Of a stretch of 63,134 nucleotides of DNA, positions 50,985-54,762 are shown piece by piece. Position 1 is the first letter of the stretch. Each line of letters opens with the position of its first letter. The notes under the pieces were generated by a model. The model made no database searches. It saw only the letters and a program-made list of their open reading frames with translations, and was not told where the DNA came from. The position numbers and the translations under genes are program-made. Source of the DNA: Pseudomonadota bacterium (GTDB lineage Bacteria > Pseudomonadota > Gammaproteobacteria > Steroidobacterales > MnTg04); the NCBI GenBank assembly GCA_022572885.1, contig JACZVC010000002.1, positions 1 through 63,134 on the forward strand, in the 5' to 3' direction.

Positions 50985-53336
50985 TCAATAATTTAGAGCG
51001 CTATGGCTGCCCACATATAATTCACGTCCTGCCGGGAGATCAATGAGCGCCCGCTGCCTGGCCAGTTCATCCTCAAGTTCGGCGAGCACGGCGGCGAAAC
51101 CCGGATGTCCCCGCAAGCCATCGGGGACCGGGTCGATCCTGATGTGCCACGCGTACCGGAAGCCCTTTTCAACGGCGGCGGCAAGATCTGCAACGCCTTC
51201 GTCGGGCCGCCCTTGCAGAGCATGGATCGCAGCCCGGAAATAAAGGACGCTGGGTGTCCCGACGTCGCGTTGTATCCAATAATCGAGAAACTCCGAGGTC
51301 TCTGTGAGCAAGGCGTCTGCGGCGCTGGAATTCCCCGCATTATCATCGATGTATGCCTTGTACACAGCAGGTAAGGCAGCCATCATCAATTGACCTCTGG
51401 TAAGCCATTTCCCGCGAACCAGGAATGGATCGGCCGATGGCAATGGGCCATTTGCTTCGGGCATTTGGTCAAGTACTTGCTGCGCGTAGTCGTGCAAACC
51501 GGCCATCGTTGCGTGGGCGACTACCAGGTGCGCCAATTCCGGGTCTACTGGCCAGTTCCTGATGTGCGCCCTCGCGCCGTCGATATTTTCGGTCGCCAGC
51601 AGATAGCTTGATCGGGTCCAGTAAGTGTACTGATCGTTCGGAAAATCTCGCTCGGCCTGTCGAATCAGCAACTCGCTACTCGAAGGTGCGTCGATTTGAA
51701 TATAAATGTTCGCCATCATCCCTGGCAGCCAGCTCATGTGGCGGATCGTGTACGGATGCTGAAGCGCACGATCCAGGCGCGGACCCAGGTTTATCGCCTG
51801 GTCGAGTTGTCCGGCGTCTCTGTGTGCGACTATGAGGTTGTTCAGCGCGGAGACATGGGTTGGTATCAGATGCAGTTGAGCATTCAGAAACCGGGATGCA
51901 CTATCGAAGTCCCTTACCATCATGCTGGACATTGCTGCTGTTGCCAGGAACTCGGTGGAGAAGGGCGCGAGTTCGGCGGCGCGCCGAGCGTAGCCGGCCG
52001 CGAGGTGGAATTCTCCGAAGGTGTCGACGGTTCGGGACAACCATCTTAAAACCATCGGGCTATCGGCATTCAGGGCAAGTGAGTGTTCATACGCAGCCCG
52101 TGCCATGACGGGGTCGCGCTCGAAATCATGGATCAAACCCATGGCCGCGTATGCCTCGGCCGAGTCCGGGTCCAGTGCCAGTGCCCGCTGAATGGCAACA
52201 CGACCATCATCAAGGCTCCTCTCCTTTGCGGCCTGATCCGTTCCGTACGAAAACCGCAGGGCCAATGCGAGGGCCAGCCCTGTCCAGCCGTCGACAAAGT
52301 CCGGATCCGCATCGACCGCCGCCCGCAACGCGGCGATTGATTTAACCATTACCGACAGCGAATCTGCTAACGTGGACACGCCCTCGCTAGGCTTAAAGCG
52401 ACGCTGCATGTAGTAACGACCGAGGACTGCCAGTTCCCTTGGGTCGAGACTTTGTCCTTCGAGCTCGGCAAGCTCCTGGCTCCAGCTCCCCGCCACATCG
52501 AGTTCCTGTTCGAGTCGCAAGATCAGTTCGTCGGTGGACACGCCCTCATCAGACACATTTGCATCTACCGGGATGCTCGCGCGAAGCGTCTCCGATTCCG
52601 GGTCGACCACATCCAGAGTAGTGCGCCCCGAGGCATCGGCTCTGAGGATGAGAACTGCATCCACCCCTAACGAGCGACCCGTGGCCACATAGGGTCCGAG
52701 ATTCTCGCCGCCATACACGGGCACATCCGGAATGACGACGGTCACATCGTCGAAGTAGATAAGGCGCTCCACCAGCTGATCAGAAATACGCTGCAGAATC
52801 TCGTCCGAGTTCGCCGATTGCGATACTGCGGGCATCATCGCCAGGCTCAACGATGGTTGTATCTCGGCGACGCCTCGTCTATCCACGTATACCATCACCC
52901 AGGCAGCCGCCGCGATGATCAGCGTCATAGCGATTGCCGCACGCTTCCCGGCCGAACGGGACATCGAGAGCCATCGCCTCGCCGGTAATTTTACGTCGCC
53001 GGATTCCGAATCAGATTCGTAGCGGACGCTCGCCACGAGCCGGTATCCCCTCTTCGGGATGGTCTCCAGATATTTCGGTCGATGGGAATCGTCGCCGAGT
53101 GCGCGACGGATGGCTCCGATCGCCTGATAAAGAGTCTCCGGTGCGACCTGTATATCCGCCCATACTGCGTCCATGAGTTCGTCGGGACCGACGACTTCAC
53201 CCGCATGGTCCGCAAGCACCCGCAGCAGGTCCATGGCCCGCGGCGTAAGGTGGACTGTTTGGCCATCCCGAGTCAATTGACCCATCGATGGGTCAACGGT
53301 CCAGTCCCCAATCAACATATTCGGCTGTCGAGACAT
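50985..53336 (-). CDS. ToxR/CadC-type winged-helix TPR regulator in the membrane
   Basis: 783 residues. About 5-105 is an OmpR/PhoB winged helix (LTPRAMDLLRVLADHAGEVV, ETLYQAIGAIRRALGDD, KYLETIPKRGYRLVA). One membrane helix (132-151) follows. About 200-300 is a domain seen in adenylate-cyclase/CadC-like TPR proteins, and about 340-700 carries TPR units (AIQRALALDPDSAEAYAAMG). The DNA-binding end is cytoplasmic and the TPR part periplasmic. It is divergent from a secreted protein gene across a 203-base gap carrying 11-bp-period direct repeats, so it probably controls that gene. The start at 53336 begins directly at the winged helix. Confidence 0.85.
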   Translation of the reverse strand: MSRQPNMLIGDWTVDPSMGQLTRDGQTVHLTPRAMDLLRVLADHAGEVVGPDELMDAVWADIQVAPETLYQAIGAIRRALGDDSHRPKYLETIPKRGYRLVASVRYESDSESGDVKLPARRWLSMSRSAGKRAAIAMTLIIAAAAWVMVYVDRRGVAEIQPSLSLAMMPAVSQSANSDEILQRISDQLVERLIYFDDVTVVIPDVPVYGGENLGPYVATGRSLGVDAVLILRADASGRTTLDVVDPESETLRASIPVDANVSDEGVSTDELILRLEQELDVAGSWSQELAELEGQSLDPRELAVLGRYYMQRRFKPSEGVSTLADSLSVMVKSIAALRAAVDADPDFVDGWTGLALALALRFSYGTDQAAKERSLDDGRVAIQRALALDPDSAEAYAAMGLIHDFERDPVMARAAYEHSLALNADSPMVLRWLSRTVDTFGEFHLAAGYARRAAELAPFSTEFLATAAMSSMMVRDFDSASRFLNAQLHLIPTHVSALNNLIVAHRDAGQLDQAINLGPRLDRALQHPYTIRHMSWLPGMMANIYIQIDAPSSSELLIRQAERDFPNDQYTYWTRSSYLLATENIDGARAHIRNWPVDPELAHLVVAHATMAGLHDYAQQVLDQMPEANGPLPSADPFLVRGKWLTRGQLMMAALPAVYKAYIDDNAGNSSAADALLTETSEFLDYWIQRDVGTPSVLYFRAAIHALQGRPDEGVADLAAAVEKGFRYAWHIRIDPVPDGLRGHPGFAAVLAELEDELARQRALIDLPAGRELYVGSHSALNY

Positions 53337-53362
53337 ACCGCATCGATTCCGATTGGCGAAGA

Positions 53363-53372
53363 AACCTAGGTT
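53363..53372. repeat. 10-bp perfect palindrome upstream of the regulator gene
   Basis: AACCTAGGTT, 27 bases upstream of the regulator ATG at 53336. Position suits an autoregulatory site; it could also be chance. Confidence 0.3.
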
Positions 53373-53410
53373 ACGCCTGCAGTCGGCTGGCTACCAGTGA
53401 TTCGCTGACC

Positions 53411-53427
53411 GAGCAAGAAAAATGCTC
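53411..53427. repeat. Short inverted repeat in the divergent promoter region
   Basis: GAGCA (53411-53415) and TGCTC (53423-53427) flank a 7-base A-rich loop. Just upstream of the direct repeats; role unknown. Confidence 0.3.
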
Positions 53428-53434
53428 AGACAAA

Positions 53435-53452
53435 TTTCAGGATTTTTTCAGG
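53435..53452 (+). promoter_or_regulatory. Two TTTCAGG direct repeats, 11-bp period: candidate regulator operator
   Basis: TTTCAGG at 53435-53441 and again at 53446-53452, separated by ATTT. Seven-base units at 11-bp spacing is the arrangement of sites bound by OmpR/PhoB-fold winged helices (for example the pho box). They lie 20 bases before TATAAA (53473-53478), the candidate -10 of the secreted-protein gene, where an activator replacing a -35 box could act. Confidence 0.5.
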
Positions 53453-53472
53453 TTTTTCCTGCCACCAGGACG

Positions 53473-53478
53473 TATAAA
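53473..53478 (+). promoter_or_regulatory. Candidate -10 box of the secreted-protein gene
   Basis: TATAAA, 61 bases before ATG 53540. No good -35 hexamer is at the 16-18 base spacing (AGGTTT at 53450-53455), consistent with an activator-dependent promoter. Prediction only. Confidence 0.4.
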
Positions 53479-53539
53479 TCAATGTCGGAGTGAATATGCA
53501 CGAAATCCATTTCAAACCCGATTTCGTCGGAGGAATATT

Positions 53540-54328
53540 ATGTTAAGCAAATTTCGTGTTATGGCTGTGACCATAGCTATAGCTGTAATTACGCTGGGCC
53601 TTGCAGCCGTGCCGGCGTTGGCTGACCAACCCGACCCGAACACCGGTTGCCATGGGCCGCACAAAGGTTGTAACGGCGGTGACCGCGACGAAACTTTTTA
53701 CGACGTGGTGATCGGCCCAATGTCTGCTAGTGGCGATTTTATTGCTGGCGAAAGTGACGACGATCACCCCTGGCTTACCTTCGGGAACGGAACGTCGATT
53801 GGCCTAGGTGATGCGACACTGTCGCCGCCAGGACCTGCCCGGCCAGGGATTGGTGAGTTCACGGATCTGAGCTTTTTCCATACCCTACCGGGTGATTCTC
53901 CTCCATTTCCTCCATTCTCAACCACGCAGGGCAAGAAGTGCTTTCCGAAGGACGGGGACGAGGAGAAGGACGAGGACGAGAAGAATCACAGGGACGTCGG
54001 CACCTTTTCGATACATCAGGGGCGCGTTCAAGAGGGACGGGGCGGCAGAGCGCAAGCCAGCTTTTGGTTCCATGGCTTCACGCACACCGAAGTTGACGAG
54101 GAAATCGTGACGGTTCTTTATGCCCTCCTGTTGACCGGGGATACGATATCGTTGCCTCCTACTGGAGGTGAATCTGTTGTGATAGCCATGACGGCCTGGC
54201 AGTTGACCGCAACGAACAAAGGGCAGGCTGTAAAGAGCGCCTCTTGTATCGGCGATGGGGAGGTGTATGTCAATGTTACGGTCACTGAACATGACCCTGA
54301 TGCTGAACATGGACATGATCATGATTGA
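53540..54328 (+). CDS. Secreted Cys/His/Asp-rich protein of unknown family
   Basis: 262 residues from ATG 53540, which has an excellent ribosome site (GGAGG then 5 bases). Signal peptide 1-28 (VPALA-DQ). Mature features: C37-HGPHKG-C44 (an eight-residue Cys/His element), C134 and C236 as the only other Cys, a highly charged stretch 136-151 (many Asp/Glu/Lys), an aromatic block SFWFHGFTHTEVDEE (174-188), beta-rich C-terminal half, and the tail EHGHDHD, a possible metal-binding end. I do not recognise a family. Its divergent neighbour is the TPR regulator, and a strong terminator follows, so it is a single-gene transcript. It could be a metal-binding or signalling envelope protein; this is inference. 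Confidence 0.8.
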   Translation: MLSKFRVMAVTIAIAVITLGLAAVPALADQPDPNTGCHGPHKGCNGGDRDETFYDVVIGPMSASGDFIAGESDDDHPWLTFGNGTSIGLGDATLSPPGPARPGIGEFTDLSFFHTLPGDSPPFPPFSTTQGKKCFPKDGDEEKDEDEKNHRDVGTFSIHQGRVQEGRGGRAQASFWFHGFTHTEVDEEIVTVLYALLLTGDTISLPPTGGESVVIAMTAWQLTATNKGQAVKSASCIGDGEVYVNVTVTEHDPDAEHGHDHD

Positions 54329-54391
54329 TGATGTACCAGAATAGTCGACTAAGATAAAAGCTGATTCCTCACTCTGAAATTCGACGCCTGG

Positions 54392-54430
54392 ACGACCCCT
54401 GGGGCTAAATAGCCTTCCAGGGGTCGTTTT
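54392..54430 (+). terminator. Rho-independent terminator of the secreted-protein gene
   Basis: An 11-bp perfect stem (ACGACCCCTGG 54392-54402 with CCAGGGGTCGT 54417-54427) encloses a second small stem GGCT/AGCC (54403-54406, 54411-54414), and is followed by TTTT (54427-54430) and C. It begins 64 bases after the stop. The reverse strand lacks a T-run after the stem, so it acts rightward. Confidence 0.9.
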
Positions 54431-54687
54431 CTTTCGGCGGCCTGATAGGCAACGACCTGTGCGGGTGGCTTGATCGGGCCATCTGAGAGAAATATGGGGG
54501 GTTGAGATTTAGCTCCACGAAGGTCTGCTTTTCTAATCGGGTGCCAATATGAAGCTTTTGGCGGTGAGAACACAGAGTGATCACATAGCCTGTGCCGACG
54601 GCGCCGGACCATTTAGACCGTAGTCAATGCCAGAAATATTTCCGCGGAAACATTCTCTCGAATTTACATTGGAAAGTTTCCAAATTA
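54431..54687. other. Intergenic stretch between terminator and tRNA-Glu
   Basis: With the 3' part after the secreted-protein gene this makes a gap of over 350 bases without a protein gene. It contains a 12-bp palindrome TTTCCGCGGAAA (54639-54650) and a TTGGAA/TTCCAA hairpin (54669-54683) just beyond the tRNA 3' end. No reading frame with start, ribosome site and familiar product was found. Confidence 0.5.
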
Positions 54688-54762
54688 TGGCGCTCCCTAG
54701 GGGAATCGAACCCCTGTTTTCGGCGTGAGAGGCCAACGTCCTGACCGCTAGACGAAGGGAGC
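54688..54762 (-). tRNA. tRNA-Glu (anticodon CUC), CCA encoded
   Basis: 75 bases, leftward. Acceptor stem GCTCCCT/AGGGAGC, discriminator G and encoded CCA. D arm TCGTCTAGCGG, close to E. coli tRNA-Glu. Anticodon stem TTGGC/GCCGA with loop CTCTCAC, giving anticodon CTC (reads GAG). T arm CAGGGGTTCGATTCCCCT. Standard cloverleaf with the U8-equivalent T. Confidence 0.95.

Follow-up and report, generated by a model that had tools for sequence, protein, structure and literature searches.

A divergent pair of a ToxR/CadC-type membrane regulator and an exported protein, with a candidate operator of 11-nucleotide direct repeats in the gap between them

Introduction

Does a membrane-anchored transcription regulator control the gene for an exported protein from which it is divergently transcribed, and if so, by what arrangement of sites? 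The question is raised by a locus in a 63,134-nucleotide (nt) stretch of DNA, hereafter the window, from a Pseudomonadota bacterium of the gammaproteobacterial order Steroidobacterales (lineage MnTg04; assembly GCA_022572885.1, contig JACZVC010000002.1, positions 1 to 63,134), in which a 783-residue regulator and a 262-residue protein are encoded on either side of a 203-nt gap. An earlier note, made from the letters of the DNA, had described the pair as self-contained and had suggested a role in metal sensing. Here we describe the regulator, a candidate operator in the gap and the recurrence of this arrangement at other loci, and weigh the readings that follow from them.

Results

The larger protein had been described as a ToxR/CadC-type membrane regulator with tetratricopeptide repeats (TPRs), and this assignment held up. 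It matches the Pfam family Trans_reg_C (E 7.4e-18) as well as TPR repeats, and the best PDB sequence match of its winged helix is the DNA-binding domain of CadC (5ju7, E 4.6e-22). An AlphaFold (AF2) model built from 15 homologues (mean predicted local distance difference test, pLDDT, 80.6) contains a winged helix, a single transmembrane (TM) helix, a TolB_N/FlgO-like domain and a TPR superhelix (Table 1). A Foldseek search with this model returned CadC (target TM-score, TMt, 0.87) and ToxR (TMt 0.86), and also TPR superhelices, whilst paralogous regulators exceed the FlgO cut-off in Pfam. No receiver domain was found by Pfam or in the model, where the winged helix begins at residue 7, and a two-component response regulator of the PhoB or OmpR type was excluded for that reason. 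Since the curated CadC equivalog of NCBIfam (92.3 bits, cut-off 400) and the curated HilA/EilA model (71.1 bits, cut-off 589) were both far from being reached, the protein is of the ToxR/CadC type yet neither CadC nor HilA. Judged by its N-terminal winged helix and the single TM helix of the model, it is a membrane one-component regulator of that type, with the TPRs predicted to lie in the periplasm.

The operator-like repeats that had been seen in the gap resolve into three 11-nt half-sites, placed head to tail at 53425-53457 with the core TTCAGG. The regulator's two closest full-length relatives in the same genome (28% identity), at the loci C19 and C21, each face a divergent exported protein as well, of 279-282 and 205 amino acids (aa), respectively, and by BLAST these are unrelated to the exported protein of the window. 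Both gaps carry a three-copy 11-nt operator like that of the window: the half-site hexamers read CTCAGA/TTCAGG/TTCAGG in the window, TTAAGA/TTAAGG/TTAAGG at C19 and TTCGGA/TTCAGG/CAAAGC at C21, and GTATNAA comes after the half-sites in all three. The best ungapped block of the three gaps has 16 of 30 columns invariant, against a maximum of 14 in 100 dinucleotide shuffles. From the start of the last half-site to the -10 element the distance is 27-28 nt in these gaps and in that of a locus from the survey described below, L069, where the operator recurs nearly letter for letter (ATTCAGGCCGA CTTTAGGTTTT CTTCAGGACTC, then TATACA). Assuming a start point about 7 nt past the -10, the two best half-sites of the window cover about -50 to -29. 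The marks of a TcpP/PhoB-type operator, namely head-to-tail half-sites, an 11-nt period and a position near -35, are all found here. The exact pattern TTMAGG-N5-TTMAGG occurs twice in the 2.76 Mb genome, once in the window gap and once in the gap of a paralogous regulator; about one match is expected by composition and a reversed control pattern is also found twice, so that the count is unremarkable and it is the positions that are remarkable. On these operator statistics we regard the half-sites as a candidate operator.

Two further observations concern the paralogous loci. In one congeneric genome only the C-terminal 410 aa of the C19 regulator are left (77% identity), and no partner was found there; winged helix and target were seemingly lost together, which fits a dedicated pair. 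An exception is the winged-helix TPR regulator at C4, whose divergent neighbour is response-regulator-like and not exported.

Related genomes were surveyed with a profile of the three regulators (window, C19 and C21) at a match threshold of E 1e-70. A match was obtained in 176 of the 396 genomes searched in the order and in 21 of the 340 in the class, and the upstream side was read for about 70 winged-helix members in the order. Signal peptides are present in 29 of 46 divergent neighbours as against 36 of 169 background genes (p 1.7e-7, order); this larger survey replaced a first background test on 22 loci. Repeats were scored as three copies against dinucleotide shuffles. At a lag of 11 nt the z-score is 12.9 in gaps that lead to exported divergent genes (n=28) and 4.5 in those that lead to other divergent genes (n=11), compared with 0.4 for co-directional neighbours (n=14) and -1.1 next to TolB-TPR relatives that lack a winged helix (n=13), and none of the other lags from 8 to 15 is prominent in the survey gaps. 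A hold-out from other families of the class gave a lag-11 z of 7.7 (n=12), and of its 13 divergent neighbours 9 are exported, although the contrast is weaker there because its five co-directional gaps also reach z 4.3. In-phase YTTMAGG pairs are directed toward the exported gene in 8 of 50 gaps; no gap (0) has them in the opposite direction. Judged by the test that the earlier note had set, co-occurrence of the two genes elsewhere, the exact pair is not repeated, its exported family having been found in no other sampled genome; what recurs widely is the type of pair.

The partners found in the survey are diverse and include UrcA family proteins (three), JAB-like, DUF2807 and DUF4384 proteins, a PD40 propeller, an OmpA-like barrel and many proteins of no family. 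Recognition helices with YQA go with TTCAGG or CTCAGG, LSRCIYQLR with TCAGG/TCAT and VSRAVSLLR with CCTAA, and our qualitative impression from these sequences is that alike helices tend toward alike half-sites. The gaps of L073, L077 and L078 have another motif in common, about TTTTTAGCCCGAGTTTCGTTACT, which we take as a probable second class of operator; among the partners at these loci, two are homologous (GCSVRD[IV]AGKWMFATGIGRQ).

The smaller protein of the window displays everything that had been read from it: a signal peptide (about aa 1-28), the CHGPHKGC element, an acidic stretch and the EHGHDHD tail, with 12 His in total and Cys at positions 37, 44, 134 and 236. That it is secreted is a prediction. 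The statement that it belongs to no recognised family agrees with our searches, which found none in Pfam, NCBIfam or the PDB sequences; a match to EGF_alliinase (E 0.021) fell below the cut-off and was discarded. Its single homologue lies in its own genome (C10:301-963, about 40% identity in the alignment). Outside that genome no homologue was found among plasmids, genome contigs, 59 relatives, 396 genomes of the order and 369 of the class, the order- and class-level searches being scored on no more than the two or three best candidates of each genome; two matches at order level (E 0.005-0.006) are weak and restricted to the leader region. An AlphaFold model from two sequences (pLDDT 39.6) was used only to describe the fold as 'mostly strands'.

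On the contigs C10 and C25 we observed two versions of one region (L028:1-2841 and L029:1-3055), 79-89% identical on either side. Their exported-protein genes have similar leaders (59% over 51 aa) and wholly different mature parts, the identity ending right after the leader and returning beside the stop codon. This looks like strain variants or duplicates in which the mature part has seemingly been exchanged. In several unrelated partners (at L069, L027, L028 and L029) the signal peptide is directly followed by a short Cys-x(6-12)-Cys loop and a linker rich in Gly or Asp.

Discussion

The domains of the regulator, the operator with its direction and spacing, and the recurrence of the design were all computed, and we consider it probable that the pair is a self-contained one-component membrane activator unit, dedicated to one exported protein and using an operator of TcpP/PhoB-type geometry. 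The regulator would be anchored in the inner membrane, the winged helix on the cytoplasmic side and the TolB_N/FlgO-like and TPR domains on the periplasmic side, a topology that we infer together with DNA binding. Two or three winged-helix domains would bind the 11-nt half-sites head to tail and, lying over the -35 region, would recruit RNA polymerase as TcpP does at toxT or PhoB at the Pho box, whilst a periplasmic cue sensed by the TPR part may tune the output of this one exported protein. Activation is favoured because the geometry matches that of TcpP and PhoB, with half-sites at -35, unlike that of Escherichia coli CadC. The self-contained character proposed earlier is supported, the design recurring at paralogues and elsewhere, and the strong terminator noted at the end of the unit is confirmed by its predicted fold (Table 1).

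Several points weigh against this interpretation. Activation of the exported gene is the leading reading, and it is taken from the promoter geometry by itself. Four congeneric genomes contain no orthologue of the window pair. Gene calls and signal-peptide calls in the survey were made with crude scripts, and the z-scores overstate independence because some of the loci are related (for example, L086/L088/L089 and L124/L126/L127). Furthermore, exported divergent neighbours also occur beside 6 of 11 TPR relatives that lack a winged helix. On this account the signal-peptide enrichment was rejected as specific to winged-helix regulators; it may in part be a broader tendency of proteins of this class, so that the specific evidence rests on the 11-nt repeats.

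A regulator that binds the repeats but represses the exported gene, or that chiefly controls its own divergent promoter, could be accommodated by the same gap, since the site lies in shared sequence and over the -35, where a repressor could obstruct polymerase. A perfect 20-base-pair palindrome (TTGACCCATCGATGGGTCAA, 53277-53296) within the 5′ coding part of the regulator's own open reading frame (ORF) might be counted in the same direction. It is the only perfect palindrome of that length in the window and is unique in the genome allowing 3 mismatches; because it has no counterpart in the other regulator gaps, it was not taken as a site and was rejected as an operator. What makes repression or self-control improbable to us is that the half-sites are directed at the exported gene in all motif-bearing gaps, never the reverse, and that the fixed distance to the -10 is the geometry of an activator.

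Compatible with a dedicated activator is a different idea about the signal: the TPR domain may sense the exported partner itself, free periplasmic partner switching the regulator in a feedback on export or demand. One regulator with one exported neighbour recurs with unrelated partners, TPR superhelices are protein-binding folds, and the C19 remnant in the congeneric genome retains the C-terminal part where no partner was found. However, unrelated partners would each require a matching TPR surface, and a small molecule or envelope stress is equally possible as the signal, so we hold partner sensing to be doubtful. The same degree of reserve applies to the still wider proposal of a large Gammaproteobacteria class in which each TolB/TPR membrane factor would govern one divergent gene for an exported protein, using its own private operator of 11-nt repeats, while the TPR part senses the partner directly; we offer this as speculation.

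Metal sensing coupled to secretion of a metal-binding protein, as suggested earlier, is not supported, and we consider it very unlikely. It drew on the His/Asp tail and the 12 His of the window protein, and three partners elsewhere belong to the UrcA family, named after a uranyl response. But the C10 homologue lacks the His of CHGPHKGC and the HGHDHD tail while all four Cys stay, for which reason the metal reading was rejected, and the partners at C19, C21 and in other genomes are unrelated. With this one homologue as the basis, the four Cys fit two disulphides rather than a metal site. That the genes are chance neighbours with no regulatory link is scarcely credible, for although this exact pair is confined to one sampled genome, the combination of operator and exported neighbour is seen again at two paralogues as well as in many genomes, and the negative controls agree with this.

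How does the unit compare with known systems? TcpP of Vibrio cholerae has a direct repeat, TGTAA-N6-TGTAA, with an 11-nt period (PMC11358694), and its site at toxT spans -55 to -37 (PMC8546550). TcpP is likewise a membrane-anchored winged helix of the PhoB/OmpR type, with a repeat of the same period at a position near that of the window repeats. It differs in its half-site, in having no TolB_N/TPR domain and in working with ToxR and TcpH on the gene of a transcription factor, whereas the window target would be a divergent exported protein. CadC of E. coli resembles the regulator in its single TM helix and, by sequence and fold, in its winged helix, but its sites are AT-rich, head to head and remote, at -153 to -113 (PMC5430869), and it acts on cadBA with LysP as co-sensor; the window repeats are head to tail at -35, and no cadBA-like ORF was found adjoining the regulator (flanks: QueD-like PTPS, PcnB). 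In Salmonella, ToxR-like regulators activate nearby genes for exported proteins, MarT the adhesin gene misL (PMC11358694) and ChiR the chitinase gene chiA (PMC10109510). These pairs have no TPR sensor, use other sites and are not reported to form a divergent design that recurs with a single operator geometry. The Pho box consists of tandem 11-nt direct repeats, TGTCA-N6-TGTCA (PMC11358694). PhoB, however, is cytoplasmic and has a receiver domain, whereas the window regulator has a TM helix and no receiver. HilA and EilA combine a winged helix and TPRs in one protein; HilA is not known to have a TM sensor arrangement. A word search of a review of membrane transcription regulators (PMC10269533) finds neither TPR nor divergent partners, and in the full-text literature, with subscription papers outside its coverage, we found no description of this regulator/exported-protein design and no paper giving targets to TolB/TPR-type CadC-like regulators. 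Regulator-target units of this kind are known, and we have found no account of the recurrent form seen here.

Such regulators are numerous, as the proportion of genomes of the order that reach the cut-off indicates, and a common operator geometry would be a direct route from sequence to the target of each. Many exported proteins of unknown function would thereby be tied to sensors for which a swap into a reporter strain is feasible, and the reading of partners by TPR sensor domains becomes directly testable. If partner sensing is true, the cell would gauge the export of, or demand for, envelope proteins one at a time.

Locus features and minor observations

Table 1. Features of the divergent pair, of the regulator protein and of lipoprotein genes beside other regulators
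Feature	Position	Strand	Remarks
Membrane regulator gene	50985..53336	-	783 aa; exact ORF
Operator half-site 1 (candidate), CTCAGACAAAT	53425..53435	+	weakest copy; 11-nt register, aligned with C19 and C21 gaps
Operator half-site 2 (candidate), TTCAGGATTTT	53436..53446	+	repeat analysis
Operator half-site 3 (candidate), TTCAGGTTTTT	53447..53457	+	overlaps expected -35
Putative -10 of exported gene, TATAAA	53473..53478	+	27 nt after last half-site start
Ribosome-binding site, GAGGAA	53530..53535	+	4 nt 5′ of ATG 53540; from sequence
Exported-protein gene	53540..54328	+	262 aa; ATG at 53540
Intrinsic terminator, 3′ of exported-protein gene	54392..54436 (approx.)	+	fold -34 kcal/mol, z -4.9
Winged helix	aa 1-106 of regulator		AF2 model
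Single TM helix	aa 129-153 of regulator		AF2 model; hydrophobic stretch IAMTLIIAAAAWVMVYV
TolB_N/FlgO-like alpha/beta domain	aa 163-257 of regulator		AF2 model; FlgO cut-off reached by paralogues
TPR superhelix	about aa 299-764 of regulator		AF2 model, Pfam TPRs
EYR-type lipoproteins	L121:2369-2623, L128:2350-2595, L143:2410-2658		second recurring arrangement
EYR-type lipoproteins	L145:2404-2643, L148:2404-2643	regulator's orientation	second recurring arrangement

The longest ORF option for the exported gene begins at 53288 and overlaps the regulator start; the ribosome-binding site favours the later ATG. The neighbouring genes encode a QueD-like PTPS protein, a TPR methyltransferase and PcnB, with no evident functional tie to the pair. 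Past the terminator lies a tRNA gene (54691-54762, minus strand), the sole match at gathering level in an Rfam scan of the window, and riboswitch control of the exported gene was rejected on that result.

Elsewhere, lipoproteins of about 80 residues that share an EYR-type motif are encoded immediately upstream of other winged-helix TPR regulators and in the same direction (Table 1). Matches resembling the c-di-GMP-I-GGC riboswitch occur at L026:7197-7308, L150:2965-3037 and L027:1326-1394 (all on the minus strand), with scores of 40, 36.6 and 34.5 bits, below the gathering score of 59; two of them lie directly 3′ of exported-protein genes and run antisense into them, whilst a 423-aa membrane protein follows the third. 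At L027:2254-2420 (minus strand), in the long 5′ leader of the exported gene at C21, a stretch resembles the 3′ half of these riboswitch-like elements, GGAAAGCCACGGGTTCTC...ACCGGGCTGCCGAT, with no 5′ half. Contig C14 (L150:2015-2866) encodes another copy of the exported protein of C19 (77% identity), with neither regulator nor operator, and there the DNA similarity starts just 5′ of the ATG, as though the promoter had been replaced.

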